Position numbers and translations under genes: made by a program. From contig NZ_CALMAT010000098.1 in NCBI RefSeq assembly GCF_937859865.1, forward strand, positions 1 to 46,118: 46,118 nucleotides of DNA, in the 5' to 3' direction. Below, piece by piece: positions 1 to 34,434 of the stretch; the first letter of the stretch is position 1, and each line of letters starts with the position of its first letter. The notes below the pieces were generated by a model, which saw only the letters and a program-made list of their open reading frames with translations, was not told the origin of the DNA and made no database searches. Source of the stretch: an uncultured Mucilaginibacter sp. (GTDB taxonomy: Bacteria > Bacteroidota > Bacteroidia > Sphingobacteriales > Sphingobacteriaceae).

Positions 1-100
1 TTTGGGTACTGTACCGATACAAAAAGTAAAATGGGCCAATGATTTTTATGCGGTAAAAGAAGCATAAAAAATACCTTGAACAAATTTTAAACAAGCTCTT
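1..100. repeat. Right part of a ~160-bp nested inverted-repeat element (type II), cut by window start
   Basis: The inner right arm ends in GGTAAAAGAAGCAT at about 52-64, followed by the outer arm TTGAACAAATTTTAAACAAGCTCT-like sequence ending near 98. The sequence closely follows the right half of the copy at 2725-2888, including the CCAATGATTTTTATGCGG stretch before the 12-mer. Confidence 0.85.
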
Positions 101-164
101 AAAAATAACAACTTTTTATGTTAAAAGTCCGTATTTATCCGATATTATTATTAGTGTTATTATT

Positions 165-1094
165 ATGCATAGCTTTTCCATTATACAACAACCACTGATA
201 TCAGTAATCGTGCCTTGTTACAATCATGGAGAATATTTAGAAACCGCAATTGAGAGTATTTTATTACAATCCTATAAAAATCATGAAATCATTGTGGTTG
301 ATGATGGCTCAACAGATAATACCAAGTTGGTTGCCAAAAAATATGCCGGAGTAAAATACGTCTATCAAACTAATCAAGGGCTTTCTGCAGCCCGAAACAA
401 AGGGATAGAAAAAAGTACAGGTAAATTTCTTGTATTTTTAGATGCGGACGATTGGCTCGTTCCTGATGCGCTTTTAACCAATTTAAAGCATTTTGAACAA
501 GATAATGAAGTTGCATTTGTAGCGGGGGCTTATGAGTTTTTTTATATGTGGAATAATGAAAAGTCACAAATTTGGCAAACCAATTTAATTGAAACGCCCT
601 ATTGCCATCTCCTGGAAAAAAATTTTATTGGAATGCATGCGTCTGTACTGTTTCAAAGGTGGGTATTTGAATTATTTAAATATGATACTAATTTAAAAAG
701 CTGCGAAGACTATGATTTATACCTCAAGATAACAAGAAAATTCAAAGTATCAGTTCATACAGAATTAATCGCTGTTTACCGCATCCACAGTAATAATATG
801 TCAAGCAATTTTGTATTGATGTTAGAAAGTGCTTTATTGGTATTAGAAAAGCAAAGAAAATTATTAAAAAATAAGACAGAAATAAAATGGTTTAAAAAAG
901 GCATTATTAGTTGGAAATCTTATTACTCTAAAAAAATTTATGAAAAGCTTTTAAACCATTTGTATGATGAAAACAAAAAAGTTATCAAAAAAGATATTGA
1001 AGATTTAAAGCGTTACGATACCTTTTCATATTTAAAGTATGTTTATTATGTTAATCTAAAATATAGAATCAAAAATTTAATAATTAAAAATTAG
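165..1094 (+). CDS. Glycosyltransferase family 2
   Basis: Predicted cytoplasmic GT-A glycosyltransferase that adds a sugar to the lipid-linked repeat unit of the surface polysaccharide. The N-terminal half carries the GT2 hallmarks: PLISVIVPCYNHGEYL at the start of the fold, the nucleotide-binding VVDDGSTDN at about residues 44-50, SAARNKGI before it turns to the metal-binding DADD at 93-96, and a CEDYDLYLK segment typical of the acceptor/base region. The 309-aa length is normal for a single-domain GT2. The C-terminal third is lysine-rich and AT-rich without a recognisable motif. It stands alone, with repeat elements on both sides. The donor and acceptor sugars cannot be read from sequence. 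Confidence 0.92.
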   Translation: MHSFSIIQQPLISVIVPCYNHGEYLETAIESILLQSYKNHEIIVVDDGSTDNTKLVAKKYAGVKYVYQTNQGLSAARNKGIEKSTGKFLVFLDADDWLVPDALLTNLKHFEQDNEVAFVAGAYEFFYMWNNEKSQIWQTNLIETPYCHLLEKNFIGMHASVLFQRWVFELFKYDTNLKSCEDYDLYLKITRKFKVSVHTELIAVYRIHSNNMSSNFVLMLESALLVLEKQRKLLKNKTEIKWFKKGIISWKSYYSKKIYEKLLNHLYDENKKVIKKDIEDLKRYDTFSYLKYVYYVNLKYRIKNLIIKN

Positions 1095-1214
1095 GTTTAA
1101 TTTGAACATGATAAGGAAGCACTGTTCTTTTTTATTTATAGATTACCAATAAGAAGTAAAAATGGGAATAAAACTTATCATACTGACTTTTCCAAAAAAT
1201 CCCCATTTACTAAA

Positions 1215-1395
1215 AGCCTGTTTAAAATTGCTTCAATCTATTTTCGATGCTTCTTTTATCTCCTAAAAACTGGTAAGCATTTGGTTTTTGCTTGGGTTAA
1301 ATTGATGCAAACACCAATTTTTATAGGGTAAAAGAAGCATTAACATCAATCCTCCTAAGCATATCGAAGGATCTTGAATAAATTTAAACAGGCTC
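1215..1395. repeat. ~160-bp nested inverted-repeat element (type I), with internal insertion
   Basis: The outer arms are AAGCCTGTTTAAAATTG (left) and AATTTAAACAGGCTC (right). The inner arms are ATGCTTCTTTTATC at about 1248 and GGGTAAAAGAAGCAT ending at 1340. Between the inner and outer right arms lies an extra CCTAAGCATATCGAAGGATC-like palindromic insert of about 20 bp. This copy is the reverse complement, with few changes, of the one at 6123-6284. It fills most of the 310-bp gap between the two convergent glycosyltransferase genes and could end both transcripts. Confidence 0.9.
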
Positions 1396-1404
1396 AAAGA
1401 GTTA

Positions 1405-2547
1405 TTAAATAATCTCCTTTATTAAACTAACAATGTCCCCTCCTGCTTTTTGCCAATTCAGTTTTGTTGAATACTGGTTGAAGGATGACAAGCAGAATCC
1501 TGAGTAATCTGTTGCGTTTTCCAGCTTTCCCTGTATGTATTCTGCATATTTAACGGGTTCATCCTGTAAAGTAAACATTTTACCATTTATATCATCCTCT
1601 ATTACACTGCTAATTCCTCCAACGTTAGTAGTAATACAAGGCAACCCGAATGAATTTGCTTCAGAAAATACTACAGGTGTACAATCTGCTTTGGATGGTA
1701 AAATCAAAAAATGACTTTCTGCAAAAAGTTGATCAATTTTTTGCTTCCCCGCAACATTTGCCTTGTTAATATAGCCATGATTAATTACATAATCAGGCAT
1801 AACCTCAAAAGGAAGTTCTTTTATACCAGCAATGTGCAATATGGTTTTTAAACCGTTAAGGTTAAGTAGCCGAGCTACTTCTAACGCTAAATCACCGCCT
1901 TTTCGGTTCCAATCTATACCTAAAAACAATAATTTACATACATTTTTAGAACGGCTGTTGATAATTGCTTTAATATCCTGCAAATTTCTGTTGCATTCAA
2001 TATTTGCTCCAAACGGAACAATCTTAACTTTATTTGGATTAATATGATAATCATTAATGGCAGATTGAGCTGCCCAACTGGAAGTATAAATGGCCAAACT
2101 GCAACTATCTAATGCTTCCTGCTCTATTTCGTTGCCTGTTTTTATTATTTCTGTATTTAAATCTGTATAATGATCATAAAAATTTATCAGTTTTGCAAAG
2201 GTTGCATCTGCATAAAAAACTTTAGGTTTATTACTTTTTACAAATGCTATATGCAGGTTTCCGGGAGAAAAAATCACATCCGAATCAGGTTTTATCCTAC
2301 ATTCTATTTGTTTTGCATAGTTTTTAGCAATATCAATACTTGGAACTAAATCAATGAGATAACTCTTGCCTATCATTCTATAAAATGCTTTTTTTAGCAG
2401 TAGTGCAGGCGTTAATTCTTTTGTTAAATTACCTACATAATCAACTTCTTCTCCCTGTTCTTTTAAAGATTTAGCAGCATAAAAACCAATCCCAGACCAG
2501 TTTTTAATATCGGCAGCATCATAGGTTGTTATGTAAGAAATCTTCAT
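1405..2547 (-). CDS. Glycosyltransferase family 4 (GT-B)
   Basis: Predicted retaining GT-B glycosyltransferase of the cytoplasmic repeat-unit assembly. The N-terminal domain begins MKISYITTYDAADIKNWSGIG, where the Gly-rich donor loop is expected. The C-terminal Rossmann domain shows KLLFLGIDWNRKGGDLAL at about residue 205, and then FLILPSKADCTPVVFSEANSFGLPCITTNVGG at about 285-315, which corresponds to the GT4 EX7E region (here xxPVVFSEAxSFGLPxI). The 380-aa length is usual. It is transcribed against the flanking genes and shares its upstream region (2548-2948) with the divergent export gene at 2949. The substrate is unknown. Confidence 0.9.
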   Translation of the reverse strand: MKISYITTYDAADIKNWSGIGFYAAKSLKEQGEEVDYVGNLTKELTPALLLKKAFYRMIGKSYLIDLVPSIDIAKNYAKQIECRIKPDSDVIFSPGNLHIAFVKSNKPKVFYADATFAKLINFYDHYTDLNTEIIKTGNEIEQEALDSCSLAIYTSSWAAQSAINDYHINPNKVKIVPFGANIECNRNLQDIKAIINSRSKNVCKLLFLGIDWNRKGGDLALEVARLLNLNGLKTILHIAGIKELPFEVMPDYVINHGYINKANVAGKQKIDQLFAESHFLILPSKADCTPVVFSEANSFGLPCITTNVGGISSVIEDDINGKMFTLQDEPVKYAEYIQGKLENATDYSGFCLSSFNQYSTKLNWQKAGGDIVSLIKEII

Positions 2548-2724
2548 ATTTTGTTATAAGTATTAGGTAAAGAGCGTTGAATTTTTTAAAATTGCAAAAA
2601 CGAAAACGTAACTAACATTGCTTGTTAAATAAAATTTTTAAATAAAACGATGAGGAAATCAACATAATTTACAATTATAGGTAATATTTTTTCTTATAAT
2701 ATATGTGCAACAGAATTTATATAT

Positions 2725-2888
2725 CAGCCTGCTTAAATTTCTATCAGAAAAATTTATAATGCTTCTTTTATGCCTGTAAATTTTGTTTTTAAAATATTGT
2801 TTTAATACAAAAAAGTACAATGTGCCAATGATTTTTATGCGGTAAAAGAAGCATTGAAAATATATTGAACAAATTTTAAACAGGCTTT
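2725..2888. repeat. ~160-bp nested inverted-repeat element (type II, reference copy)
   Basis: The outer arms are CAGCCTGCTTAAATTT and ATTGAACAAATTTTAAACAGGCTTT. The inner arms are ATGCTTCTTTTATGCC and GCGGTAAAAGAAGCAT. The copy at 28784-28946 is nearly its exact reverse complement, so the element occurs in both orientations. It lies in the 401-bp divergent region between the genes at 2547 (minus) and 2949 (plus). The rest of that region is AT-rich, with no further feature that I can support. Confidence 0.92.
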
Positions 2889-2948
2889 ATATCTTTTTAT
2901 ATATCTTTATAAGCCTTAATAATAAAATTTAAATCTTTAAAATTCTTT

Positions 2949-3716
2949 ATGAACAAAATAAATAATTTTTATTATATATTTTTAACACTACTTCTTAGTT
3001 CCTGCAGCTCTTATAAAAATATCCCCTATTTCCAGGACTTAAACCACACCAAACCCACTAAGGAACAAGTTGAAAACTACTCCCCGCTTACCATACAGCC
3101 AGCAGATGTTTTAAGCATCAATGTAAGTAGCAGAAATCCCGAATCTTCGGCTATATTTAGCAGTGTAAACGGGAATAATTCTAATAATTCACCAGATAAT
3201 CAAAGCATTGGGTATTTGGTGGATCAAAAAGGCAATATCCATTTGCCATTAATTGGAAATTTAAAGGTAGCGGGGCTAACTACTAACGAACTACGTGAAA
3301 AACTGAATCAAACTCTTCTTACCTATTATAAAGACCCGGTTGTAAACATTCGGCTACTTAACTTAAAAGTTTCTGTGTTCGGAGATGTATTGCGCCCTAA
3401 TATTTATACTTTACCCAATGAACGTACAACCCTTACGCAAGCACTAAGTTTAGCAGGGGATTTGAATATTACAGCCATGCGCAACAATATTATATTAATC
3501 AGGGAAGAGGACGGTAAACGGAATTATATACCCCTTGACCTAACTTCTAAAAAATTGTTTGAATCTCCGTACTATTATATAAAAAACAATGACGAAATTT
3601 ATGTACAACCAGACCGTACCAAATATGCTACTGTTGATCGTGGCAACCGTACTGCAACCTTTGTGCTTTCAGGTATTTCCGTCCTCGCCATTCTTCTTAC
3701 CTATTTACGTCGGTAA
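2949..3716 (+). CDS. Polysaccharide export outer-membrane lipoprotein (Wza/BexD-like)
   Basis: Outer-membrane polysaccharide export protein of the OPX family, expected to form the exit channel coupled to the Wzc-like protein encoded 10 bp downstream. A signal peptide ends in the lipobox LLLSSC with Cys19 as the lipidated residue. The poly-export domain follows (IQPADVLSINVSSRNPE at about 50-65, then GYLVDQKGNIHLPLIGNLKVAGLTTNEL at about 90-115). Next is an SLBB-type segment (LKVSVFGDVLRPNIYTLPNERTTLTQALSLAGDL, about 140-175). The C-terminus ends in one hydrophobic stretch (FVLSGISVLAILLTYL) followed by RR. The 255-aa length matches the short Bacteroidota OPX proteins rather than the roughly 380-aa enterobacterial Wza. 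Confidence 0.95.
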   Translation: MNKINNFYYIFLTLLLSSCSSYKNIPYFQDLNHTKPTKEQVENYSPLTIQPADVLSINVSSRNPESSAIFSSVNGNNSNNSPDNQSIGYLVDQKGNIHLPLIGNLKVAGLTTNELREKLNQTLLTYYKDPVVNIRLLNLKVSVFGDVLRPNIYTLPNERTTLTQALSLAGDLNITAMRNNIILIREEDGKRNYIPLDLTSKKLFESPYYYIKNNDEIYVQPDRTKYATVDRGNRTATFVLSGISVLAILLTYLRR

Positions 3717-3726
3717 TTTATAATAT

Positions 3727-6114: not shown

Positions 6115-6122
6115 TTTATTTA

Positions 6123-6284
6123 GGGCCTGTTTAAACTTATACAAGAAGAAATGCTAATGCTTCTTTTACCCTATAAAAATTGGTGTTTGCATTAATTTAA
6201 ATAAAGCAAAAACCAAATGTTTGCCATTTTTTAGGCGATAAAAGAAGCATTGAAAATAGATTGAACCAATTTTAAACAGGCTCT
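6123..6284. repeat. ~160-bp nested inverted-repeat element (type I, reference copy)
   Basis: It begins GGGCCTGTTTAAAC and ends TTTAAACAGGCTCT. The inner arms are ATGCTTCTTTTACCC and GGCGATAAAAGAAGCAT, each followed inward by TAAAAATTGG-type sequence. It lies between the convergent wzc-like gene and the short beta-helix gene, whose stop codon is only 41 bp away. It is a plausible bidirectional terminator. Confidence 0.92.
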
Positions 6285-6325
6285 AAAGAAAAGTTTGATA
6301 ATAAGCTAGTTACTACTTAATACTA

Positions 6326-7819
6326 TTAGTTGCTAGCTTGTATAATCATCGGCTTATTAATAGGATCGCATAAATTTTCGTAAGCGCCCATATCAGGTGC
6401 TTTCCCGCTAAAAGTTAACCCAACGTTTTTGCCTGCATCAATACAGAGTGAAGTTTTCTGGAGGTGCAAATCATTTGTGCTTACAAAAAGTGGGTTTACA
6501 GATATAGAATGAAGCCCTTTTCCAGTTGCTGCTTTATACTGAGCCAAGCTCTTTTGATTACCGGTACTGTAATCTGAGTAGATGTCGCTTAATCCGTTAT
6601 TATAAAAACAATTGTAATCATCTTCTGCCAATACATTTTCATTTGTGCTAAAACTAATCATGGCATACCAAGAAGGGCTTTCTATGGTACTGAATACATT
6701 GTTTACCAGTCTGATCATTGGTACTTCTGACGCAGAGGCATAGTCCAGATTAAAAAAGCGGCTTTTAAAATCGTAAATAGAGTTGTTATAAACATTTATG
6801 CCACCAACTTTATAAATACCTATTGCCACACTTGTAAAATCTATCCCCCCTCCAATCATGATGTTTCCGGAAATGGTTGTATTTAACATTGCCCCAATAC
6901 CGTTTGTTGCCCCATGTCCATCCATCACCTCACACTGTTCATAGTTTATAGCATAAATATATGAATGTCCACCACTATACATGTAATTACCATTTATATT
7001 AGAATCAAAGGCATTTTCAAGCGCAATCGAATACTCTGGACAATTGTAGATTTTATTGTTTCTTATCGTATGGCCATAATCAACATGATAAGCCCCGTCT
7101 AGATCTATACCCGCCACTTGGCAATCATGGATAATGTTATTCTCAAAAATACAATCATGTGTATTAATCATCGTCCAAATCCCACGTACTGTAAAATTAC
7201 TTATGGTATTCCCTGTGTAAGTATTATGATGGCAAAACTTATGGTGCTCCCAAATGCCGTTGCCATTCCCATCATTAGTGCTTCCGTCAACAATATTATT
7301 CTCAAAAAAATTATAAGAACCAAGAAGTTGGACTCCACCATAAAAAACGCAATTTTTTATCCTGCAATTGCTCATTCCAATATCAGTGTCATTCCAAATA
7401 TTTCCTAATTGAACAACCATGCCCTTTGTGCCAGTCATTTTAAATGCTATTCCGTCAACTGTTTGATTGAGACTAAAATCCCTCGCAATGTTTATAGCTA
7501 CACCTGTACCGCCATCAATAACAGGCAATTCTCCACTTCCATAATTACCGAAAGTGATACCATTACACATAGTAGTAAGGGTAGCACCAGTCCAAACATC
7601 CCCTTTATTAAATAAAACAAAATCGCCTGGACGAATGCTGGCAGCGAAAGAATTTAGTTTATCTAAAGTTTTCCAGGGAGTTAATGAGTTTTTTGCCTGC
7701 TCACTACTTCTGCTATCATCACCAAACCTTGAGGAAAAGTAGTATGTGGAGGCCAAACAACACTGAGATAAGGCAATAAAAAATAAAACAAACAGTAGCT
7801 TCATAAAAGAGAAATTCAT
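6326..7819 (-). CDS. Right-handed parallel beta-helix protein, short paralogue
   Basis: Secreted right-handed beta-helix protein of the pectate-lyase/NosD-like fold. Such proteins often cleave or bind acidic polysaccharides, and a role on the locus's own polymer is inference. The better start is Met6 (codon 7804-7802): it gives MKLLFVLFFIALSQCCLAS, a clean signal peptide, and matches the start of the paralogue at 12765-15074. The body shows helix-coil repeats rich in N-N-x-I/V (NTYTGNTISNFTVRG, CIFENNIIHDCQVAG, TISGNIMIGGG). Protein similarity to the paralogue is very high up to about residue 475. Here it then stops at IIQASN, without the PA14 and T9SS sorting domains of the long copy. The export route and activity of the short form are unknown. 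Confidence 0.85.
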   Translation of the reverse strand: MNFSFMKLLFVLFFIALSQCCLASTYYFSSRFGDDSRSSEQAKNSLTPWKTLDKLNSFAASIRPGDFVLFNKGDVWTGATLTTMCNGITFGNYGSGELPVIDGGTGVAINIARDFSLNQTVDGIAFKMTGTKGMVVQLGNIWNDTDIGMSNCRIKNCVFYGGVQLLGSYNFFENNIVDGSTNDGNGNGIWEHHKFCHHNTYTGNTISNFTVRGIWTMINTHDCIFENNIIHDCQVAGIDLDGAYHVDYGHTIRNNKIYNCPEYSIALENAFDSNINGNYMYSGGHSYIYAINYEQCEVMDGHGATNGIGAMLNTTISGNIMIGGGIDFTSVAIGIYKVGGINVYNNSIYDFKSRFFNLDYASASEVPMIRLVNNVFSTIESPSWYAMISFSTNENVLAEDDYNCFYNNGLSDIYSDYSTGNQKSLAQYKAATGKGLHSISVNPLFVSTNDLHLQKTSLCIDAGKNVGLTFSGKAPDMGAYENLCDPINKPMIIQASN

Positions 7820-7892
7820 AAAAAACCATTTACTTATACCAATCTATCAATACTAAGTTGCAAAAATTTTAGAAAATTTAGCTTAATATTTT

Positions 7893-8055
7893 AGAGACTG
7901 TTTAAATTTTGTTATACGAAAAAATATTAATGCTTTTTTTATGCCGATAAATTTTGTCTTGCATAAAATTAAGATGTAAAAAGCATAAAAGTTGTTATTT
8001 TTCGGGTGATAAAAGAAGCATAAAAAACAAATTGAATAAAATTTAAACAGGCTCT
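7893..8055. repeat. ~160-bp nested inverted-repeat element (type II, diverged)
   Basis: The outer arms are AGAGACTGTTTAAATTTTG and AATTTAAACAGGCTCT. The inner arms are ATGCTTTTTTTATGCC (one change) and GTGATAAAAGAAGCAT. First of two elements in the 690-bp gap 7820-8509. Confidence 0.85.
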
Positions 8056-8205
8056 CATAATTAAGTGTGAAATTAAATTTACATTTAAAAAGCAGATGTA
8101 TATTTTTAACCTTAAAAAAGCATGTGTTTGTATTGTATTTATGTAAAAGAGAATAGGAAGATTAATCTTTATTATACGAATAAAATAAGCATAGAAACCA
8201 AATTT

Positions 8206-8367
8206 AGAGCATGTTTAAAATTTACTTAATTGGTTCTCAATACTTCTTTTATCGCATAAAAATTGGTAAACATGTGATCTTTAGTTTATTTAAATTGATG
8301 GAACTACCAATTTTACAGGGTAAAAGAAGCATTAGCATTTTTTCTTATATAAGTTTAAAAAGGCTCT
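8206..8367. repeat. ~160-bp nested inverted-repeat element (type I)
   Basis: The outer arms are AGAGCATGTTTAAAATT and AAGTTTAAAAAGGCTCT. The inner arms are TACTTCTTTTATCGC and AGGGTAAAAGAAGCAT. It has the same orientation as the copy at 1215. The stretch between this and the preceding element (8056-8205) is AT-rich with possible decayed arms only. Confidence 0.88.
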
Positions 8368-8473
8368 AAATAAACTTTAAACAAGCGCTAATAAACACTT
8401 TTATTAATCAACTCAATACATAAAATATGTTTTAAAAAATAATCGTTAAAATAAAAAGGGAACAGAAAAATAT

Positions 8474-8481
8474 TATATTTG
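8474..8481 (+). promoter_or_regulatory. Candidate Bacteroidota -7 box (TATATTTG)
   Basis: TATATTTG fits TAnnTTTG and lies 28 bp before the MBOAT start. The surrounding AATATTATATTTG is repeated in front of the acyltransferase gene at 11252. No convincing TTG -33 element is visible at the right spacing, so this rests on the -7 match and the shared context. Confidence 0.45.
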
Positions 8482-8509
8482 GAATTAGTTATTTTCCCAC
8501 AATACAAAT

Positions 8510-9943: not shown

Positions 9944-9949
9944 TTTTAA

Positions 9950-12385: not shown

Positions 12386-12557
12386 AGAACTTGTTAAACT
12401 TATTCTTTTGTATTTTACACCATGCTTCTTTTATCGCCTAAAAATTGGCCTTGCCTGGTTTTATAAGTTTGTTTAGGCAGGTACAGGCACCAATTTTTAT
12501 AGGGTAAAAGAAGTATCAACTAAAAAAGAGGGCCAGAAAAAAAGTTTAAACAACTTT
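12386..12557. repeat. ~160-bp nested inverted-repeat element (type I)
   Basis: The outer arms are AGAACTTGTTAAACTT and AGTTTAAACAACTTT. The inner arms are ATGCTTCTTTTATCGCC (12422) and AGGGTAAAAGAAGTAT (one change). Between them TAAAAATTGG and CACCAATTTTTA face each other, so the inner hairpin extends well beyond the 12-mer. It has the orientation of the 1215 copy. Confidence 0.88.
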
Positions 12558-12574: not shown

Positions 12575-12720
12575 TTTAGAACAATCAACTAAAACATTAA
12601 ATTCTGGTAAAAATATTTTTGTATTACATTATTTAGGCGCCTTTATCTCATCAAAAAACCAAAATTTATTGGCATAAAAGAAGCATTATCATTTCCAAAC
12701 AAATCATTTAAACAGGTTTT
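12575..12720. repeat. Decayed nested inverted-repeat element (type II, reverse)
   Basis: The right half is clear (AAAATTTATTGGCATAAAAGAAGCAT, split across 12660-12686, then ATTTAAACAGG), but the left inner arm is lost. The right end is 45 bp from the stop codon of the long beta-helix gene. Confidence 0.65.
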
Positions 12721-12764
12721 TACCTTTTTAAATGATTTATGCTGATAACATTTTTACCTAAATT

Positions 12765-15074
12765 TTATTTCATTACAATAACCTTCTTTGTCAAGTTATT
12801 TTTTCCGCTTTTTAAATGAAGAATGTAAACACCGTTCTGTAAACTTTCTGCGCTAAGTATCAAGTCCTGCTTAACATTTGCTTCTGTTGTTCCGGTAAAT
12901 AATTTGCTAATTAACTGTCCTTTTGTATTATACAAAGCAACATCTGTTTGTCCTGCTTCCGGCAAAGCAAACTCTACAGTTGTTTGCTGTGAAACGGGAT
13001 TTGGATAAACATACAACCCTGGTTTCACAGTTGCCGATATTTGTTCAGTTGCTGTTGCAGAGAATGGCAAAGTACTTCCGGTTCCGAAGTTTGCACTTAA
13101 AGAAGATGTATTCATTTGTTCTGCAACATAAGGCGACAAATGGCTTCCTGCAATTGGTGTTTCCATCGTTGCATCCGGAAGCCGCCATTGAACTGTTAAA
13201 TTATTCCAGCCGCCACCGTCTTTTTGTAAGGCTTCTACATAATATTTCTTCCCTGCCTGTAAGGTTATTACAGCAGATTGTTGCGAAGGATATTTATTCC
13301 ATTCCCGGTAATTTGTCCAACCACTTACGTTAGCAATCCTTACTTTATTTACAGGTTGATCATCTGTTGAAAGCCATAGTTCACCGTCATCATCTGTTGC
13401 AATCCAAAAAGTGTAACTCCCAGTTTGGGGCGGACAAATATAACCCCGAATACGTGAGCCATATTTATCTGCTATGTTTAACGGCCCTTCAAAAGAAGTT
13501 AGCTGACTGGTAGACGTGGGCGTAGTTTGAAGTGGAATATTGGAAATATTGTTGCCGGAAATATTATCCCATTCCTCTCGCAAAATGGTACCTGTGGCAG
13601 AACAAGCAGTAGTGGTTATCGCAGAATTAACAGGATCATTTAAATATTCATAAGCACCCATATCTGGTGCTTTCCCGCTAAAAGTTAACCCAACGTTTTT
13701 GCCTGCATCAATACAAGGTGAAGCCTTTTGCAGGTGCAAATCATTTTTATCTACAAAAAGTGGGTTTACAGATATGGAATGAAGCCCTTTTCCAGTAGCA
13801 GCCTTATATTGACTTAGGCTTTTTTGATTACCGGTACTTCTATCCGTATAGATGTCGTTCAGGCCGTTGTTATAAAAACAGTTGTAATCATCTTCTGCCA
13901 ATACATTTTCGTTAGTGCTGAAGTTAACCATGGCGTACCAGGAGGGGCTTTCTATGGTACTAAATACATTGTTTACCAGTTTGATCATTGGGACTTCTGA
14001 TGCAGAGGTATAGTCCAGATTAAAAAAACGGCTTTTAAAATTGTAAATAGAGTTATTATAAACATTTACGCCACCAGCTTTATAAATGTTTATTGCCACA
14101 CTTGTAAAATCTATCCCCCCTCCGATCATGATGTTTCCGGAAATAGTTGTATTTAATATTGCTCCAATACCGTTTGTTGCCCCATGCCCATTCATTACCT
14201 CACATCGTTCATAATTTATAACAGAAATATAAGAATGCACAGCGCTATACATATAATTGCCTTGTATAGTACAATCAAAAGCATTTTCAACTGCCATTGC
14301 ATTAAGGTTGCAATTGTAAATTTTGTTGTTCCTTACCAAATGGCCATAGACAACATAATAAGCGCCGTCTAAATCTATACCAGCCACCTGGCAATCATGG
14401 ATAATGTTATCCTCAAAAATACAATCGTGCGTGTCAGTCATCGTCCAAATTCCACGGACTGTAAAGTTACTTATGGTATTCCCTGTGTAAGTATTATGAT
14501 GACAAAATTTATGGTGTTCCCATATCCCGTTCCCATTTCCGTCGTTAGTAGTCCCGTCAACAATGTTACTTTCAAAAAAATTATAAGAGCCCAGAAGCAG
14601 GACTTCACCAAAAAAATTACAGTTTCTTATCTTGCAATTGGTCATGCCAAGATCGGTATCGGTCCAAATATTTCCTAATTGAGCAACAATATCTTTTGCC
14701 CAGCTTCTTTTAAAAGCTATCCCGTCAATAGTTTGACCGAGGCTGAAATCCCTTGAAATGTTTATGGCTACATTTGCACCGCCATCAATAACAGGCAGGT
14801 CTCCATTCCCATAATTACCAAAGGTTATACCATTGCACATAGTTGTAAGTGTGGTGCCTGTCCAAACATCCCCTTTATTAAATAAAATAAAATCACCCGG
14901 ACGGATGCTGGCAGAAAAAGAGTTTAATTTTTCTAAAGTTTTCCAGGGTGTTGAAGGGTTTTTTGCCTGCTCACTGCTTCTGTTGTCATCGCCAAGGCTG
15001 GATGAAAAATAATAAGTGGAAGCAAAAGAACATTTGCATAAGGCAATAAAAAACAAAATAAAAAGTAACTTCAT
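12765..15074 (-). CDS. Beta-helix / PA14 protein with type IX secretion domain
   Basis: Cell-surface or secreted protein with four parts. The signal peptide is MKLLFILFFIALCKCSFAS. A right-handed beta-helix domain covers about residues 25-480, with repeated N-N-x-I turns. A PA14-type carbohydrate-binding domain covers about 495-640 (GTILREEWDNISG, YICPPQTGSYTFWIATDDDGELWLSTDD, AGKKYYVEALQKDGGGWNNLTVQW). The T9SS type A C-terminal sorting domain covers about 690-769 (LYVYPNPVSQQTTVEF, DVALYNTKGQLI, LQNGVYILHLKSGKNNLTKKVIV). The C-terminal domain implies export by type IX secretion. Location in a polysaccharide locus suggests a lyase, epimerase or binding role on the polymer; the catalytic residues cannot be assigned. 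The gene at 6326-7819 is a truncated paralogue. Confidence 0.92.
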   Translation of the reverse strand: MKLLFILFFIALCKCSFASTYYFSSSLGDDNRSSEQAKNPSTPWKTLEKLNSFSASIRPGDFILFNKGDVWTGTTLTTMCNGITFGNYGNGDLPVIDGGANVAINISRDFSLGQTIDGIAFKRSWAKDIVAQLGNIWTDTDLGMTNCKIRNCNFFGEVLLLGSYNFFESNIVDGTTNDGNGNGIWEHHKFCHHNTYTGNTISNFTVRGIWTMTDTHDCIFEDNIIHDCQVAGIDLDGAYYVVYGHLVRNNKIYNCNLNAMAVENAFDCTIQGNYMYSAVHSYISVINYERCEVMNGHGATNGIGAILNTTISGNIMIGGGIDFTSVAINIYKAGGVNVYNNSIYNFKSRFFNLDYTSASEVPMIKLVNNVFSTIESPSWYAMVNFSTNENVLAEDDYNCFYNNGLNDIYTDRSTGNQKSLSQYKAATGKGLHSISVNPLFVDKNDLHLQKASPCIDAGKNVGLTFSGKAPDMGAYEYLNDPVNSAITTTACSATGTILREEWDNISGNNISNIPLQTTPTSTSQLTSFEGPLNIADKYGSRIRGYICPPQTGSYTFWIATDDDGELWLSTDDQPVNKVRIANVSGWTNYREWNKYPSQQSAVITLQAGKKYYVEALQKDGGGWNNLTVQWRLPDATMETPIAGSHLSPYVAEQMNTSSLSANFGTGSTLPFSATATEQISATVKPGLYVYPNPVSQQTTVEFALPEAGQTDVALYNTKGQLISKLFTGTTEANVKQDLILSAESLQNGVYILHLKSGKNNLTKKVIVMK

Positions 15075-15323: not shown

Positions 15324-15422
15324 AGAACCTGTTTACAAATTAAATAAAGCATGGGTAGTTGATAGTTTTTAGGTAGTAAAAGAAGCATAAAAAATAAATC
15401 GAACAAAGTTTATACAAGCTAT
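15324..15422. repeat. Internally deleted nested inverted-repeat element (type I)
   Basis: The outer left arm AGAACCTGTTTACAAATT joins almost directly to the right inner half (TAGTTTTTAGGTAGTAAAAGAAGCAT region) and the outer right arm. The left inner arm is missing, giving about 99 bp. It abuts the next element. The 724-bp gap 15075-15798 holds three copies in a row; 15075-15323 before them is AT-rich with nothing else that I can support. Confidence 0.78.
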
Positions 15423-15423
15423 T

Positions 15424-15582
15424 AGAGCATTTTTAAATTTGCAAAAAAAACGGCCATGCTTTTTTTACCCTATACAAATTGGCGTTTACATCAACCTAAA
15501 TAAATCAAAAACTAAATGTTCATGATTTTTTAGGTGATAAAAAAAACATAGGAAAATATATTGAACAGGTTTTAAACAATTT
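15424..15582. repeat. Nested inverted-repeat element (type I, diverged)
   Basis: It begins AGAGCATTTTTAAATTTG. The inner arms are ATGCTTTTTTTACCC and GTGATAAAAAAAACAT (mutated). The outer right arm is TTGAACAGGTTTTAAACAAT. It has the same orientation as the 6123 copy. Confidence 0.78.
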
Positions 15583-15631: not shown

Positions 15632-15765
15632 ATTGTTAAACTTGTTCCAAAGTTTTGCATGCTTCTTTTATCCATATAAATGCTATTCCTATCTTTGTCT
15701 TTCTATAACAGATTCATAAATAATATAGCCAAAAGAAGTAAGTTTTGATATGAATTTAATCAATT
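15632..15765. repeat. Nested inverted-repeat element (degenerate)
   Basis: The left outer arm is ATTGTTAAACTTGTTCCAA and the left inner arm ATGCTTCTTTTATCC (15659). The right inner arm is CCAAAAGAAGTA (about 15729), with a poorly kept outer right arm. It is the third copy in a row and lies 34 bp before the polymerase gene. Confidence 0.65.
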
Positions 15766-17136: not shown

Positions 17137-17187
17137 GGCTAATATATTAGTTGATGAAAACGGTTCAAAATATTAATATAAAAGTTA

Positions 17188-17352
17188 AGAGTATGTTTAA
17201 ATTTATATCATAAAATTTTACAATGCTTCTTTTATGCCTATAAATTTGGTGTGCTTAAATATTTTAATATTACAAAAACCACAAAAATTCAATGATTTTT
17301 ATGTGCTAAAAGAAGCATGGCAAATAAGTTTAACAAAATTTAAACAGGTTCT
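17188..17352. repeat. ~160-bp nested inverted-repeat element (type II)
   Basis: The outer arms are AGAGTATGTTTAAATTT and AAATTTAAACAGGTTCT. The inner arms are ATGCTTCTTTTATGCC (17223) and GTGCTAAAAGAAGCAT. It has the orientation of the 2725 copy. The remainder of the 444-bp gap (17353-17580) is AT-rich with no further feature. Confidence 0.9.
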
Positions 17353-17580
17353 AAGAGAAGTAAAAAAGTAAGAGGTTGTTAAATAAGAAAAAGGTAAGTT
17401 TTAACTACTAAACTATAATAGTAATATTCCAATGGTTCGAGTAAATTTAATTGCACTTATAACTTGTTTTGAGGAAAAAAGTTCAGAAAGCAGGTTATTC
17501 ATTTTTAAGTTATAAGCATAATAATATTATAAAAAACCAAACCCGTTACTAATACACTTTTATCTTAAAATAACTAATAT

Positions 17581-18702: not shown

Positions 18703-18920
18703 TCTGACCTACATCTTTCAGCTTAACAAAGGCAACAGGATCAAAAAGAAAGTTGTTAAACGAAAATTGTAAAGTTTTAATTATAAAAAAGAACTGTATT
18801 TTATTGGTATACGATTTTTTTATAATAAAAATTACTGTAATTTATTGCCTTTTTACACTATCTTTATTGACTTTGATTTTAGTTAAAGTTTTTTTATAGC
18901 ATAATTCTATATATCAATTA

Positions 18921-20345: not shown

Positions 20346-20363
20346 ATAATTGCTATATTAATA

Positions 20364-20480: not shown

Positions 20481-20542
20481 TATTCAATTTAGTCATTTTT
20501 CATGGGAATACTCCCTTAGTTTTTATTCAAATAATGTTTTAA

Positions 20543-20703
20543 AAGCCCTTTTAAGTTTTACCCAATTTATTTTTTATGCTTCTTTTATCGCCTAAAAAAC
20601 AGCAGATTTTATTACCTTTTTGGATTTATGTAGCTTTGTTCGCAATAATTACAAGTATAAAAGAAGCATTATCAATTTTTCAGATAAAAATTTAAATAGT
20701 ATT
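20543..20703. repeat. ~160-bp nested inverted-repeat element (diverged)
   Basis: The left outer arm is AAGCCCTTTTAAGTTTT and the left inner arm ATGCTTCTTTTATCGCC (20577). The right inner arm is AGTATAAAAGAAGCAT, and the outer right arm is decayed (AAATTTAAATAGTATT). Confidence 0.82.
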
Positions 20704-20819
20704 AATTTATTATTTTATCATAGGCTGTTTTATCCTTTTGTAACATCTAATAAAGATTTAAAATAAACCTATAAATAAAATAAATAGGACTTAGATAAAA
20801 ACTTTCTTTAATTCATAAA

Positions 20820-21797: not shown

Positions 21798-21877
21798 AAT
21801 ATTTTCATTCGTCTTTTATCCTATTAAAATAGGAATATTTTAGAAATCCTAATATTGAATATGTTTTTTAATAATGA

Positions 21878-22036
21878 AGTTGTTTAAACTTTTTTTCCGG
21901 CTTATTTTTGGAGCTGATGCTTCTTTTACCCTATAAAAATTGGTGCTTAAACAAACCAAAAATTAGGCAACGCTAATTTTTAGGTGGTAAAAGAAGCATG
22001 ATATAAAGCATAAAAGAATAAGTTTAAACAAGTTCT
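21878..22036. repeat. ~160-bp nested inverted-repeat element (type I)
   Basis: The outer arms are AAGTTGTTTAAACTTTT and AAGTTTAAACAAGTTCT. The inner arms are ATGCTTCTTTTACCC (21917) and GGTGGTAAAAGAAGCAT. It has the orientation of the 6123 copy and sits in the 413-bp gap 21798-22210, whose remainder shows nothing else. Confidence 0.9.
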
Positions 22037-22210
22037 ATAAAAGTAGTATAATATTTTTTTAGATTTAACCTTTAAAAATTATTCTAAAATATATTTAGAA
22101 CACAAGTGTACTTATAGCAATTTTTATTTACTATAAATTATGGATTACTTGCGGAATAATAAATTGACCTATGAAGATATATTTTAGAAATAGTTATAAA
22201 TTGAATAATC

Positions 22211-22726: not shown

Positions 22727-22828
22727 AAAATACATAATTCCTACTAACTATCGTAATGGCTATAATTGCAAGCTTCCTATGCTAATTAAAATCCATTACT
22801 ATTAATAAAAATATTTCTTAAAACTATT

Positions 22829-24088: not shown

Positions 24089-24185
24089 TTTACAAGCTGT
24101 GCCTAATTGCGTAATAAAAATATTTAATTTTTAACTTTATCTCTCCGCTGCTTATAACTTATAAAAATAAAAACAGATTAAACTT

Positions 24186-24346
24186 AGAGTCTGTTTAAGA
24201 TTCATTTAAGATTTTTCTATACTTCTTTTATCACCTAAATTTTTATGTTTTCTATATTTTTTTCTGAAAGCATCAATTACAAAAACAAAATTTATAGGCA
24301 TAAAAGAAGCATTATACATTTTGCTAAAGAAATTTAAACAAAGTCT
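24186..24346. repeat. ~160-bp nested inverted-repeat element (type II, reverse)
   Basis: The outer arms are AGAGTCTGTTTAAGATT and AAATTTAAACAAAGTCT. The inner arms are TACTTCTTTTATCACC and AGGCATAAAAGAAGCAT. It runs in the orientation of the 28784 and 30219 copies. Confidence 0.88.
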
Positions 24347-24363
24347 GTACACAGCAATCAAGA

Positions 24364-24386
24364 ATAATATTTTATAAAAATATTAT
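24364..24386. repeat. AT-only perfect hairpin
   Basis: ATAATATTTT and AAAATATTAT form a 10-bp perfect stem around a 3-nt loop (ATA). It lies just after the preceding element and is not part of it. It could form a weak hairpin or a protein-binding palindrome. Confidence 0.6.
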
Positions 24387-24391
24387 CATCG

Positions 24392-24447
24392 TACGTTTAA
24401 AATTATGTTTAGCGTATTTTTACTTCTTTTATCCCACAAAATTCTTT
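24392..24447. repeat. Left half of a nested inverted-repeat element
   Basis: CGTTTAAAATTATG followed by TACTTCTTTTATCCCAC at about 24420 matches an outer plus inner left arm. No right arm follows before the gene at 24476. Confidence 0.6.
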
Positions 24448-24475
24448 ATCGTGCTTGTACCCTTAATTAATAAAA

Positions 24476-25573: not shown

Positions 25574-25600
25574 TATTTTTGTTGAAAGTATTGAGGTATG

Positions 25601-25764
25601 AAGGCTTGTTTAATTTAAATCCGAAAAAATTACTGTGCTTCTTTTAGCCATTAAAAATTCGTTTTTATTTCTTTTATTTTTTACAAAAAGCATAAAAATC
25701 ACCTGTTTTTTTATGTGCTAAAAGAAGCATAGAAACCTGTTCAATAAAATTTTCAAACCAACTC
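25601..25764. repeat. ~160-bp nested inverted-repeat element (type II)
   Basis: The left outer arm is AAGGCTTGTTTAATTT and the left inner arm GTGCTTCTTTTAGCC. The right inner arm is GTGCTAAAAGAAGCAT, and the right outer arm AATTTTCAAACCAACTC is diverged. The rest of the 335-bp gap 25574-25908 shows no further feature. Confidence 0.82.
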
Positions 25765-25908
25765 GATTCACATTTTAGAAATTGTATTTCTGTAAATTAG
25801 CCATTCAATAAGCTAATTAGTGTTTAACCAAATAAGCATATTAGGTTTTGCATAAGAAAATATGGGAGAAACTATATACTTGTTTGTAATGTTAAAGGAA
25901 TTTATACT

Positions 25909-28521
25909 ATGGCTTGCATCTCTTCTCAAAAAACACTACTGGTTATATTAATGGTATTGTTTTTGGGTAATGTTATTGCTCAGGTGCCTAATATTAGCTA
26001 TCCAACTCCTCAAAGCTATACAATCAATACTGCTGTTACTCCTCTATTGCCAGCTAATACAGGCGGTGCTGTACCAAACAGGGCTTATGGCCAGGTTTCT
26101 ACCTTAACTGGTAATGGTTACGGAAATGCCGTTGGTAGCTTAGCATCAGCAAGATTTGCTTCTCCAACAGGGGTAGCATTAGACCTACAGGGCAACATTT
26201 ACATAGCTGATCGTGAAAATAATATTATAAAGAAGATTTCCTCTGCTGGTATAGTTAGTGTTTTTGCGGGAAGCGGTGCAGAAGGCTCTGCCGATGGAAT
26301 TGGCCCGGCAGCTACCTTTTATTCGCCTGTAAGTTTAACTACAGATGTTGCAGGTAATATTTATGTTGCAGATTATGGCAGTAGTTTAATCAGGAAGATA
26401 ACACCTACCGGAGTAGTAACTACCCTGGCCGGAAGCACACCAGGGTTTGCTAATGGAACAGGGACAGCAGCAAAATTTGGTTCGCCAAGTGGTATAACTG
26501 TAGATAAATCAGGTAATGTTTTTGTAGGAGACAGAGATAATAATTTAATAAGAAAAATTACTCCCGCTGGAGTAGTTACTACTTTTGCAGGTAGCGGAAC
26601 TGTTGGAGCTGTAAACGGGACAGGTACAGCAGCAAGCTTTCAACATCCGCAATGTTTAACTTTTGATAATAATGAAAACCTCTATGTTACGGATTTTAAT
26701 AGTATCATAAGAAAAATAACGCCAGCAGGTGTGGTAACTACTTTTGCTGGTAGTGGAGTTACAGGTTCAACTGATGGTGTTGGTACTGCTGCAAGCTTTA
26801 ATTTGCCAGTAGGCATTACAGCTGATCATTTAAGTAATATATACGTAGCAGATGCCGGAAATCTTTTGATTCGGAAGATAACCCCGGCAGGTGTAGTAAC
26901 TACGTTAGCAGGAACTGGTTCAGTTGGCTTTGTAAACGGTATTGGTAAAGCTGCCAGTTTTTCAGGTTTATATGACCTAACTATTGATACTGAAGGAAAT
27001 GTATATGCGGCAGATGCTTATCACAACGGCGCGATAAGAAAGATTTCAACTACGGGTTATACAATTGATAAAACTCTGCCTGCGGGTTTGATTTTTGATT
27101 CAGCAACTGGAACTATCAACGGTACTCCAATTGTTTTATCTCCTGCTACTGATTACACCATCACAGCGTATAATACAAGCGGCAGTAGTACTACGGTTGT
27201 AAATATTAAAGTAGAAAATCCGGCACCCCTCGCTTTTGCAACCCTTCCATCTAAAAATATTTGTGATACCGATTTTGATCCTGCTGCCACAAGTGGCATC
27301 GGAACAATAACATACATCAGTAGCAATTCTGCTGTAGCAACTATTATAAACAATAAAATACATGTTACCGGACCAGGCGTTACATTAATCACAGCTACTG
27401 ACGGAAGTACATCTGCTCAACAAAATTTAACAGTAATTTCACCGGTTCTTCCTGTAGTTAACATCACTTCGGATCATAACAACATCTGCATTGGTATGCC
27501 CGTTACCTTTACTGCAACTGTAAAGAATGCTGGCAGTAATCCAACTTATCAATGGCAAGTTAATGGCATAAAGGTTGGTATTAACAGTCCAACTTTTACC
27601 ACTTCCAATATTTCCCCAACAGATGTTGTTCAGTGTGAAGTAACTAATAATGATTCCTGTCCGGTCAGTAGTTCATCTAATAAGATAACCGGTATAAATG
27701 CCGACCCTTATGTTACGCCTACAGTTTCCATAATATCATCAGCTACCGGGCCTGTTTGCAGCGGAACTGAAATAACTTTTACCGCAACTTCAACTAATGG
27801 TGGTACAAATCCAACTTATCAATGGCAGGTTAATGGTGTAAACTCAGGAAGCAATAATCCAGTATTTACTAATAGTAATTTTGTAAATGGAGATATAGTT
27901 ACTTGTATGCTTACCAATAATACAGGTAAATGTGTTGCACCTCCGATGGTTTTATCCAACACCATAAAAGTAAATTTGATTCAGCCTTCTAATACCAGCC
28001 TTTCCGTTATTGCATCGGCCAATCAGGTTTATACAGGTACAACTGTTACTTTTACTGCTTTACCAGTTAGCATAGCATTGGTTACCTCTTACCAGTGGCA
28101 GATTAACGGGATAGATACTGGTACAAATAGTGCTACTTTTACCAGTAAAACCTTAAAAACCAACGATCAAATTATTTGTACCATTACAGTAAATGATGGG
28201 TGTACTATCACAACTGTCAGTAGTTTGCCAATATCCGTAAACATTCTTCCATCACCTACCTTAAATATCCCTAATACCTTTACCCCTAATGGAGATGGCA
28301 TTAATGACTACTGGAATATTACAGCCCTGGTTTATTACCCAAACTGTTTGGTAAGCATTTATAACCGTTACGGCTCCTTAGTTTACCAATCAAAAGGATA
28401 TAGCAAAGCATGGGATGGTTCAATAAATGGCAGTCCGCTTTCTGTTGGAACTTATTATTATGTAATTAGTTTAGGTAGCAGTAGTAAGAAAATAAGCGGC
28501 GGCGTTACTATTATTAGATAA
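25909..28521 (+). CDS. NHL-repeat / Ig-like surface protein with gliding-motility-type C-terminal domain
   Basis: Large secreted or surface protein. The signal peptide is MACISSQKTLLVILMVLFLGNVIA. A He_PIG-like segment (NISYPTPQSYTINTAVTPLLPANTGG) comes first. About six NHL beta-propeller repeats follow at about residues 65-380 (each with G-I-T-V-D-x-x-G-N-V-x-V-x-D, I-R-K-I-T-P-A-G-V-V-T-T and F-A-G-S-G). A second He_PIG segment (GLIFDSATGTINGTPI) leads into three Ig-like modules, each with PTYQWQVNG or SYQWQINGI. The end is a CHU_C/T9SS type B C-terminal domain (IPNTFTPNGDGINDYWNI, VSIYNRYGSLVYQS, WDGSINGSPLSVGTYYYVI). The terminal domain predicts type IX secretion. It probably acts in adhesion or binding; the ligand is unknown. 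Confidence 0.92.
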   Translation: MACISSQKTLLVILMVLFLGNVIAQVPNISYPTPQSYTINTAVTPLLPANTGGAVPNRAYGQVSTLTGNGYGNAVGSLASARFASPTGVALDLQGNIYIADRENNIIKKISSAGIVSVFAGSGAEGSADGIGPAATFYSPVSLTTDVAGNIYVADYGSSLIRKITPTGVVTTLAGSTPGFANGTGTAAKFGSPSGITVDKSGNVFVGDRDNNLIRKITPAGVVTTFAGSGTVGAVNGTGTAASFQHPQCLTFDNNENLYVTDFNSIIRKITPAGVVTTFAGSGVTGSTDGVGTAASFNLPVGITADHLSNIYVADAGNLLIRKITPAGVVTTLAGTGSVGFVNGIGKAASFSGLYDLTIDTEGNVYAADAYHNGAIRKISTTGYTIDKTLPAGLIFDSATGTINGTPIVLSPATDYTITAYNTSGSSTTVVNIKVENPAPLAFATLPSKNICDTDFDPAATSGIGTITYISSNSAVATIINNKIHVTGPGVTLITATDGSTSAQQNLTVISPVLPVVNITSDHNNICIGMPVTFTATVKNAGSNPTYQWQVNGIKVGINSPTFTTSNISPTDVVQCEVTNNDSCPVSSSSNKITGINADPYVTPTVSIISSATGPVCSGTEITFTATSTNGGTNPTYQWQVNGVNSGSNNPVFTNSNFVNGDIVTCMLTNNTGKCVAPPMVLSNTIKVNLIQPSNTSLSVIASANQVYTGTTVTFTALPVSIALVTSYQWQINGIDTGTNSATFTSKTLKTNDQIICTITVNDGCTITTVSSLPISVNILPSPTLNIPNTFTPNGDGINDYWNITALVYYPNCLVSIYNRYGSLVYQSKGYSKAWDGSINGSPLSVGTYYYVISLGSSSKKISGGVTIIR

Positions 28522-28599
28522 TTTGGGTTTTACTACGCGGTAAGTAAAAGTCTATAAACTTTACTTGTTCAAAGTACAATGGTTTGACGTTTGATTATA

Positions 28600-28645
28600 A
28601 GAGATTGTATAAATTTATATCAGAAAAATTTATAATGATTTTTTA
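28600..28645. repeat. Left-arm remnant of a nested inverted-repeat element
   Basis: AGAGATTGTATAAATTTATATC, written here in parts as AGAGATTGTATAAATTT and ATATCAGAAAAATTTATAAT, matches the left end of the 2725 copy up to a mutated inner arm (ATGATTTTTTAG). No right arm follows. Confidence 0.6.
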
Positions 28646-28783
28646 GTACTGTTTCTGATTATAAGATGACTATAAAAACCGATACATTCTTATAAATATT
28701 AAGCTGCAGTTAGCTATAAAAAATGAAAATATTCATTCTGATTTATCTGCTTTTTCTACTAAACTAAAGCCATTATACATTTA

Positions 28784-28946
28784 AAGCCTGTTTAAAATTT
28801 GTTCAATAATTTCTTATATACTTCTTTTACCGCATAAAAATCATTGGCACAATGTACTTTTTGTATTGGAACAATATTTAAAAACAAAATTTATAGGCAT
28901 AAAAGAAGCATTATAAATTTTTATGATAGAAATTTAAACAGGCTCT
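28784..28946. repeat. ~160-bp nested inverted-repeat element (type II, reverse orientation)
   Basis: The outer arms are AAGCCTGTTTAAAATTTG and AAATTTAAACAGGCTCT. The inner arms are TACTTCTTTTACCGC and AGGCATAAAAGAAGCAT. Its reverse complement aligns along the full length with the copy at 2725-2888 with only scattered differences. Confidence 0.92.
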
Positions 28947-29429
28947 AATGGAGAGAAAATTGAGCTTGTATAACAAAAACAAGATTAATTATTGATAGAA
29001 ACGTAGTTAAAAGACAACTTTTGCTACTAAACATCATTCACCGTTTTGTTTAAAGAACTTCCCTGCCTAACATCTTAATCCTTAAAAAATTAATTAGTAC
29101 TGTTATTAATTGTTTAAAAACATAAATTGTTTATTTAAATTTTTAATCATAGCTTTAAAAAATTATTCTTTTTGTTTTTTTAAGAAAACATTTATATATT
29201 TTTTATACCAATTATTATATTATTAACTTAAAATTGCGAGTATATATCTGGTTTATATAGATATTATCACTTTTAAGTTCAAAATTTGACCAATTATATT
29301 TTTACAATTTGTATATTTTTTAATCTATTAATTTGGTTATTGTTGTATATAAATTATTTAAGCATTACAGAAAAGAATTATTTTTTAGTATTTTTTTAAT
29401 TAATAATTGTATAAACTTACATTCTAAAA
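28947..29429. other. Very AT-rich intergenic stretch
   Basis: About 480 bp with long A/T runs between the last element and the GT26 gene. I see no reading frame, RNA gene or clear promoter match in it. Confidence 0.4.
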
Positions 29430-30155
29430 ATGAGTGAAAATTTAAGTAATTATGCGGGCTATAACCTGTTTACCAAATCACTTGACGATTTGCCACAGGC
29501 ACCAAAAATAGTGATTAATACAATTAACCAATATTCTTTTTGCATGGCAGAAAAAGAGGCTGAGTTTAAAAATGCTTTATTAGAATCAGAAGTATTATTG
29601 CCTGATGGTGTTGGAATTGTAGCTGCTGTTAGGTTACAAAACGGTGATAAAATAAATAAAATTTCAGGCTCAGACCTTCATTATCATTTATTAAATAAAT
29701 TGAACCAAGAATATGGCAGTTGTTTTTATTTAGGCTCTACGGAAACAACATTAAAAAAAATTAAAGAAAAAATAGCACTCGAATATCCTAATATTAGAGT
29801 AAGCTATTATTCTCCTCCTTTTAAAGCTACCTTTTCTGATGAGGACAATGCTAATATGGTTTTTCAAGTCAATCAATTTAAACCTGATGCATTATTTGTT
29901 GGAATGACTGCTCCTAAACAGGAAAAATGGGCCATTGCACATAAACAACAATTAGATGCAAAAGTAATAGGTTCTATAGGTGCAGTATTTGATTTTTACG
30001 CAGGAACTGTAAACCGCCCGGCCAATTTTTGGGTAAACTTGCGTTGCGAGTGGTTTGGCCGATTGCTCAATGAGCCACAACGCATGTGGAAAAGATACTT
30101 GTATTATGGACCTATCTTCGTTTATACTTTACTTAAATACAAAATTAAATATTGA
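29430..30155 (+). CDS. WecG/TagA/CpsF family glycosyltransferase (GT26)
   Basis: GT26 glycosyltransferase, a family that commonly adds the second sugar (for example ManNAc or ManNAcA) to an undecaprenyl-diphosphate-linked primer on the inner face of the membrane. Diagnostic segments are present in order: INTINQYSFCMAEKEAEF near residues 27-45, LLPDGVGIVAAVRLQNG near 57-73, KISGSDLHYHLL near 79-90, GSCFYLGSTETTLKKIKEKI near 97-116, and FVGMTAPKQEKWAIAHK near 155-171. VIGSIGAVFDFYAGTVNRPANFWVNLRCEWFGRLLNEPQRMWKRYL at about 180-225 completes the set. The 241-aa length is standard. It implies a priming transferase, which is not found in the window. Confidence 0.94.
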   Translation: MSENLSNYAGYNLFTKSLDDLPQAPKIVINTINQYSFCMAEKEAEFKNALLESEVLLPDGVGIVAAVRLQNGDKINKISGSDLHYHLLNKLNQEYGSCFYLGSTETTLKKIKEKIALEYPNIRVSYYSPPFKATFSDEDNANMVFQVNQFKPDALFVGMTAPKQEKWAIAHKQQLDAKVIGSIGAVFDFYAGTVNRPANFWVNLRCEWFGRLLNEPQRMWKRYLYYGPIFVYTLLKYKIKY

Positions 30156-30218
30156 TAATTTATACCTAAATGCCTTTTTAAGTAAAAGAGTACATTATAA
30201 AACATTTCTTTTTTACTT

Positions 30219-30402
30219 AGAGCCTGCTTAAATTTTGTTCAATTTATTTTCTATACTTCTTTTATCACCTAAAAAACATAAAAAGCTTCCATGCTTTTTG
30301 TATCAGCATAGAATATAAACACAAAATTTATAGGCATAAAAGAAGCATCATAATTATTAATCCTGAGCTTATTGAAGGATATGCTATAAATTAAACAGGC
30401 TT
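30219..30402. repeat. ~160-bp nested inverted-repeat element (type II, reverse) with internal insertion
   Basis: The left outer arm is AGAGCCTGCTTAAATTTTG. The inner arms are TACTTCTTTTATCACC and AGGCATAAAAGAAGCAT, and the right end is AATTAAACAGGCTTT. An extra CCTGAGCTTATTGAAGGAT lies between the inner and outer right arms, at the same place as the related insert in the 1215 copy. The following 350 bp up to 30752 are AT-rich with no feature that I can support. Confidence 0.88.
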
Positions 30403-34430: not shown

Positions 34431-34434
34431 TGCC

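Follow-up and report, generated by a model that had tools for sequence, protein, structure and literature searches.

A clade-restricted, putative DNA-uptake word in Mucilaginibacter, borne also by a MITE-like element that crowds a polysaccharide locus

Introduction

The left part of a 46,118-nucleotide contig from an uncultured Mucilaginibacter sp. (RefSeq GCF_937859865.1, NZ_CALMAT010000098.1) holds a polysaccharide locus in which a nested inverted-repeat element, with an outer and an inner pair of arms, stands in most of the gaps between genes. We refer to the whole contig (C98 of a 3.98-Mb Sphingobacteriaceae genome) as the window. What is this element, and why does it stand there? A preliminary description of the DNA proposed that each gene is a cassette bounded by sites resembling the attC sites of integrons. 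Our analysis points to two superimposed entities: an outer part that is a miniature inverted-repeat transposable element (MITE), and an inner arm that is an independent genomic word, probably one that is read during DNA uptake.

Results

The inner arm is an abundant word restricted to three genomes

As an exact 12-mer, the inner arm (TAAAAGAAGCAT) has 2114 copies in the 3.98-Mb genome, divided between the strands as 1059 and 1055; its reversed control occurs twice. When 12-mers were ranked in a 446-kb sample, the commonest were this word, its shifted versions and three related spellings, which combine into the core TAAAA(GA/AC)AG(C/T)AT; the word itself was found 249 times, versus an average of 0.135 for its anagrams. 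At core positions 6–7 in the same sample, GA (304) and AC (111) predominate and the intermediates AA (19) and GC (12) are rare, a dichotomy that suggests a reader accepting two dinucleotides. No long contig showed strand bias of the word (C130, 61/51; G1C1, 125/137). Polar systems such as Chi and KOPS require such a bias, and a Chi- or KOPS-like polarity was rejected on these contigs.

The degenerate pattern TAAAARMAGYAT was counted across the order, in the three genus members and in 397 further genomes. It occurs 3710, 3246 and 2655 times in the former and ~4–90 times in the latter, at background and near the reversed control. Among these 400 genomes, the word-rich ones are only the window's own, Mucilaginibacter arboris HMF7410 and a metagenome-assembled genome (MAG) from lichen; whole-genome motif counts that agree exactly tie the latter two to the genus members counted, and they also encode the nearest ArgB proteins (86% and 88%, respectively). 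Intragenic copies in unrelated genes have in common an extended flank, C.(A)A-W5-GSYGR. In two species, copies within genes and copies between genes alike show an A/T tract at positions −7 to −12 with GSYGR immediately upstream of the word, and a C at −15 is seen in the window's genome and more weakly in M. arboris.

The nested element does not explain the word, because strict elements contain only 63 of the 743 motif copies in the sampled contigs. Copies in the window that stand singly, or in pairs of simpler build, are the following.

31743..31754, plus strand: solo motif upstream of argB; the corresponding sites are TAAAAACAGCAT (M. arboris) and TAAAAACAGTAT (lichen MAG)
32260..32271, minus strand: solo motif within argB, common to the three species; it arose by substitution, with a conserved Gly replaced by Ser
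32915..32926, plus strand: solo motif inside proC
33551..33594, unstranded: simple inverted motif pair with 32-nt spacing, directly 3′ of the proC stop codon, without outer arms
42949..42960, plus strand: solo motif whose upstream flank is complete, CACCAATTTTTAGCCGA
44114..44125, plus strand: solo motif inside a D-serine-dehydratase-like gene
45808..45892, minus strand: two motifs in direct orientation (45808 and 45881), 3′ of a peptidase gene

Here and below, element, gap and spacing statistics refer to 820 kb of the 3.98-Mb genome, with genes called simply as longest open reading frames (ORFs). The preliminary description stated that no copy lies inside a gene. This is true of the elements, since an ORF call spans the midpoint of 1 of 95 near-full copies, but not of the inner arm, which lies within argB (32260), proC (32915) and the gene at 44114.

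Copies within genes arose by substitution

The word in argB is present in all three word-rich species, and nearly all of the ~40 listed relatives align with it gaplessly, codon for codon, without the word; a glycine kept in nearly all of these relatives is serine in the word-bearing species. In a gap test of in-gene copies against motif-free outgroups, modelled on that of Redfield and colleagues for uptake signal sequences (USS; PMC1626085), the motif codons were gapped in 1 of 30 cases (3.3%; control 3.5%). Over the 30 aligned copies, amino-acid identity was 40% in the motif codons versus 56% in the flanks. The gap test and the drop in identity together indicate that the word arose by substitution in pre-existing sequence, at a cost to the proteins, and on these alignments insertion is excluded as the general origin of in-gene copies.

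The word is also retained between species. Orthologous blocks with 79.5% overall identity contain 28 sites, of which 13 are identical (6% expected) and 8 more have a different accepted spelling; 39 comparisons across the three species in the comEC region gave 22 identical sites (5% expected) and 6 with a different spelling. The site upstream of argB reads GAAGC, ACAGC and ACAGT across the three species. These comparisons show that the word is maintained, with spellings that are equivalent to one another. The comEC gene itself (L206 9717–11837) bears several words or spellings, two of which are kept in all three species.

The outer part of the element has the features of a MITE

The outer arm (AGAGCCTGTTTAAA, up to 2 mismatches) matches the window 23 times versus 1.03 expected from shuffles, and 35 of 37 strict facing arm pairs contain both inner arms. 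A profile of 172 positions, built from 33 aligned complete copies, recovered 14 complete or near-complete elements within 1–30402, plus fragments, and one further complete element beyond that range (34283–34431). The nested anatomy and the homologous copies in most gaps, as first described, are thereby confirmed. Most of the twenty positions originally listed were also recovered by the profile; those at 24392 and 28600 were not, and 28600 resembles the first part of the element only. The copies found by the profile are as follows.

7–101: fragment truncated by the contig start
1211..1398, plus strand: near-complete MITE-like element, with its inner motifs forming an inverted pair at 1247/1329
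2725..2888, minus strand: near-complete element; inner pair at 2759/2843
6119..6286, minus strand: near-complete element; inner pair at 6157/6239; 92% identity (inverted) to 1211–1398 over 132 nt
7891..8057, minus strand: near-complete element
8204..8369, plus strand: near-complete element; alternative right arm ending at 8390
12386..12553, plus strand: near-complete element with degenerate outer arms
12647..12721, plus strand: partial element, right half
15350..15420, minus strand: partial element
15422..15578, minus strand: near-complete element
15636–15762: weak fragment
17186..17355, minus strand: near-complete element
20541..20699, plus strand: near-complete element
21880..22037, minus strand: near-complete element
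24183..24347, plus strand: near-complete element
25599..25758, minus strand: near-complete element
28781..28948, plus strand: near-complete element; 91% identity (inverted) to 2725–2888
30216..30405, plus strand: near-complete element
34283..34431, plus strand: near-complete element outside the polysaccharide locus

Copies of this 163-bp family are ~70–92% alike over their full length and occur in both orientations. They end in GAGCCTGTTTAAATTT, with terminal inverted repeats GAGCCTGTTTAAA. A TNA 3-mer, as expected of a target duplication, matches in 14 of 34 cases versus 6.8 expected, a modest signal. At a single orthologous site (C92:37262) the element is missing in M. arboris and both conserved flanks are present, a simple insertion at odds with a cassette arrangement. 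The genome also encodes an IS5-type transposase (DUF4096) with ends GAGGTTGTTTAAACTT, which are similar, not identical, to those of the element; this insertion sequence (IS), at L199 56–988 on contig C174, could supply the transposase that the mini-element lacks. Because the terminal repeats differ from those of the single IS5-type element found, the mobilising transposase is not proven. On these sequence features, we class the outer part as a MITE, a short transposon that is non-autonomous and, by its ends, of IS5 type. A candidate autonomous element in C152, with arms facing each other 2.2 kb apart, was rejected; it encloses an ordinary transporter gene (identity by inspection) and no transposase.

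Near-full elements number 95 per 820 kb in the window's genome, 7 per 455 kb in M. arboris, 3 per 180 kb in the lichen MAG and none per 400 kb in an outgroup. With ~95 near-full copies in 820 kb, the element is not special to the polysaccharide locus, although it is more crowded there: counting gaps >150 bp, strict elements number 10 in the 14 gaps of the locus versus 24 in 223 gaps elsewhere, a density ~7-fold higher per gap.

The polysaccharide locus is bounded by a tRNA gene

Genes of the locus have a GC content of 32.6%, versus 44.7% in the genes to its right, and contain 1 in-gene word versus 7.2 expected (P 0.006). This AT-richness and word depletion are as expected of recently acquired genes. 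Nearly all words of the locus lie in gaps, and most of these belong to elements. The boundary of the locus is the 3′ end of tRNA-Ser(GGA) (31577–31666): gene content to the left is wholly different among the window, M. arboris and the lichen MAG, and the region to the right is syntenic in all three. The tRNA gene is a likely insertion point of an island. Breakpoints had been predicted to fall at elements; the sole comparable locus boundary falls at this tRNA end (31577), not at an element. Probable recent acquisition, words almost confined to gaps and a boundary at tRNA-Ser explain the impression of cassettes without an attC-like mechanism, and homologous recombination between element copies may occur.

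Two further features of the window concern its gene content. A 12.5-kb block (33584–46058, from proC to the next shared stretch) is missing from the corresponding place in both M. arboris and the lichen MAG. The left edge of the block coincides with the motif hairpin, and part of it (34475–37254) matches the lichen MAG elsewhere. Within the locus, the beta-helix genes at 6326–7819 and 12765–15074 have in common two 300-nt stretches with 85–86% identity, a recent duplication.

Competence genes are present in the genus

In Riemerella, another member of the Bacteroidota, the ComEC, DprA, helix-hairpin-helix (HHH) and NamZ/DUF1343 families are essential for transformation, along with others, and the essential genes recovered by the screen include no pilus genes (PMC8459023), so that a pilus requirement may not be general. 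Genes for these four families are present and intact (open) in the genus. A protein of ~306 aa with repeated helix-hairpin-helix motifs, encoded at L209 6803–7723 (contig C77), resembles the HHH protein of Riemerella. The neighbours of comEC here differ from the Riemerella genes RA0C_RS04915/04920. R. columbina is reported to favour its own DNA, and counts of its k-mers of no more than 10 bp yielded just A/T-rich words, whose relevance is unknown (PMC7965970).

Discussion

We propose, by analogy with known uptake signals, that the word is probably read during DNA uptake, and we describe it as an uptake-signal-like sequence. In Haemophilus and Neisseria, the accumulation of words by substitution is attributed to biased uptake and subsequent recombination, and a clade-limited word gained by substitution against protein constraint fits such a process. 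Its enrichment in convergent gaps and its scarcity in the genes of the polysaccharide locus also speak for the proposal. The word has accumulated by point mutation in the three species, most likely because an uptake system prefers fragments that bear it. What such a system would read is the core TAAAA(GA/AC)AG(C/T)AT together with GSYGR just before it and, about a helical turn before the core, an A/T tract. The MITE, which carries an inverted pair of the word, has come to occupy gaps, at highest density in the AT-rich and probably acquired polysaccharide locus, and may itself gain from carrying the word.

Several observations weigh against this proposal. The ATPase family of type IV pili and type II secretion systems powers uptake in Neisseria and Haemophilus, and in none of the three genomes did a profile search for this family (PF00437) give a match above the cut-off; on this ground, a type IV pilus reader was rejected. 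No receptor was identified, no search having been aimed at a candidate (ComP, or the predicted ComN). Motif-free relatives have the same competence families, which therefore permit competence without proving it and are not diagnostic. Even spacing is marginal, with a coefficient of variation of 0.76 in the window's genome versus 0.84 ± 0.04 under the null, and not significant in G001, another genus member. No uptake experiment on this genus was found in the open-access literature. Finally, three quarters of the copies (186 of 249) are intergenic, whereas 65% of H. influenzae USS lie inside genes (PMC1626085).

Other explanations must be weighed against an uptake signal. The one that survives best, though we consider it unlikely, is that the word is bound by an abundant protein that organises, repairs or modifies the chromosome (HIP1-, matS- or Chi-like) and is selected site by site. 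Such abundance and conservation, together with interchangeable spellings and an origin by substitution, would suit any strongly read site; the balance between strands speaks against polar systems, and neither the amino-acid cost in many genes nor the limitation to one small genus is readily predicted by a role within the cell.

Considerably less probable is that the inverted pairs are terminators or stabilisers of mRNA 3′ ends, forming predicted hairpins at gene ends. The inverted arms do fold strongly (z −6.0 and −8.2), and the motif is present in 79% of convergent versus 53% of divergent gaps. However, copies in tandem gaps occur in both orientations relative to the genes (137 same, 125 opposite), and these, together with the many copies within genes, weigh against termination as the main cause. 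Moreover, strict elements are commoner in divergent than in convergent gaps (12.4 versus 4.4 per 100 gaps), so that the convergent enrichment is absent from them. Termination can be a secondary use, as with pairs of USS or of the DNA uptake sequence (DUS) of Neisseria.

We give very little credence to the element as the boundary of exchangeable, attC-like gene cassettes. Its enrichment in most gaps of the locus and the one gene-content breakpoint at a simple motif hairpin (33584, after proC) speak for it, but the elements are spread over the chromosome, the inner arm is a word of its own with >2000 copies, the locus boundary lies at tRNA-Ser, and the Pfam-annotated genes of the window show no integrase or cassette array. 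That all copies, solo ones included, are relics of a copy-and-paste element (a MITE, or a repetitive extragenic palindrome, REP, with its REP-associated tyrosine transposase, RAYT) has scarcely any chance of being right: the dispersed 163-bp family, the IS5-type relative and the empty site favour it for the outer element only, and for solo and in-gene copies it is already contradicted by the small share of words in strict elements, by the gap-free alignments to motif-free outgroups and by the Y1_Tnp counts (one match in the window's genome, equal or more in many motif-free relatives), which led us to reject a REP/RAYT origin.

Sequence-specific uptake is stated to be known in two families only, Neisseriaceae and Pasteurellaceae, both of which use type IV pili (PMC12616744). 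Our broader claim is that the word represents a third independent origin of self-specific uptake sequences, in Bacteroidota, without a type IV pilus, with two core spellings and with a MITE that labels itself and neighbouring foreign polysaccharide genes for uptake by kin; the chances for and against this full picture seem to us evenly balanced. Searches of the open-access literature found no description of the word or of Bacteroidota uptake sequences, although a paywalled or preprint account is possible, and combining Mucilaginibacter with natural competence gave nothing related. If the claim is true, such a case, the third and in a distant phylum that lacks the pilus ATPase in these genomes, would make it possible to test whether uptake bias generally evolves such words. 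It would also suggest that Bacteroidota have a new kind of receptor, and the MITE would be a mobile element that bears its host's uptake word.

Comparison with known systems

Like integron attC sites, the element is an imperfect inverted repeat that separates genes of variable content; unlike them, it is genome-wide, lies outside a cassette array and was seen with no tyrosine recombinase. REP sequences are likewise short intergenic inverted repeats with hundreds of copies, but the element here lacks a RAYT association and in-gene copies of the word arose by substitution. The outer part resembles IS5-group MITEs in being short, noncoding and dispersed, with terminal inverted repeats like those of the IS5-type element in the genome, a weak 3-bp TNA duplication signal and one empty site; here, the element additionally bears an inverted pair of a genome-wide word.

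For the word itself, the Neisseriaceae DUS offers a contiguous 12-bp word with interchangeable or dialect spellings at a comparable genome density, although its sequence is unrelated and the extended A/T flank is a feature of the word described here. The Pasteurellaceae USS (Hin-USS, AAGTGCGGT; Apl-USS, ACAAGCGGT) is also unrelated in sequence. It belongs to another phylum, whereas the word here is mostly intergenic, has its A/T tract upstream, in mirrored direction, and occurs where no type IV pilus ATPase was found. The USS layout nonetheless joins a core to an A/T tract at one helical turn (PMC12616744), and both systems comprise thousands of copies on both strands, in family-restricted dialects, with a core and A/T tracts at helical-turn spacing and an origin by substitution.

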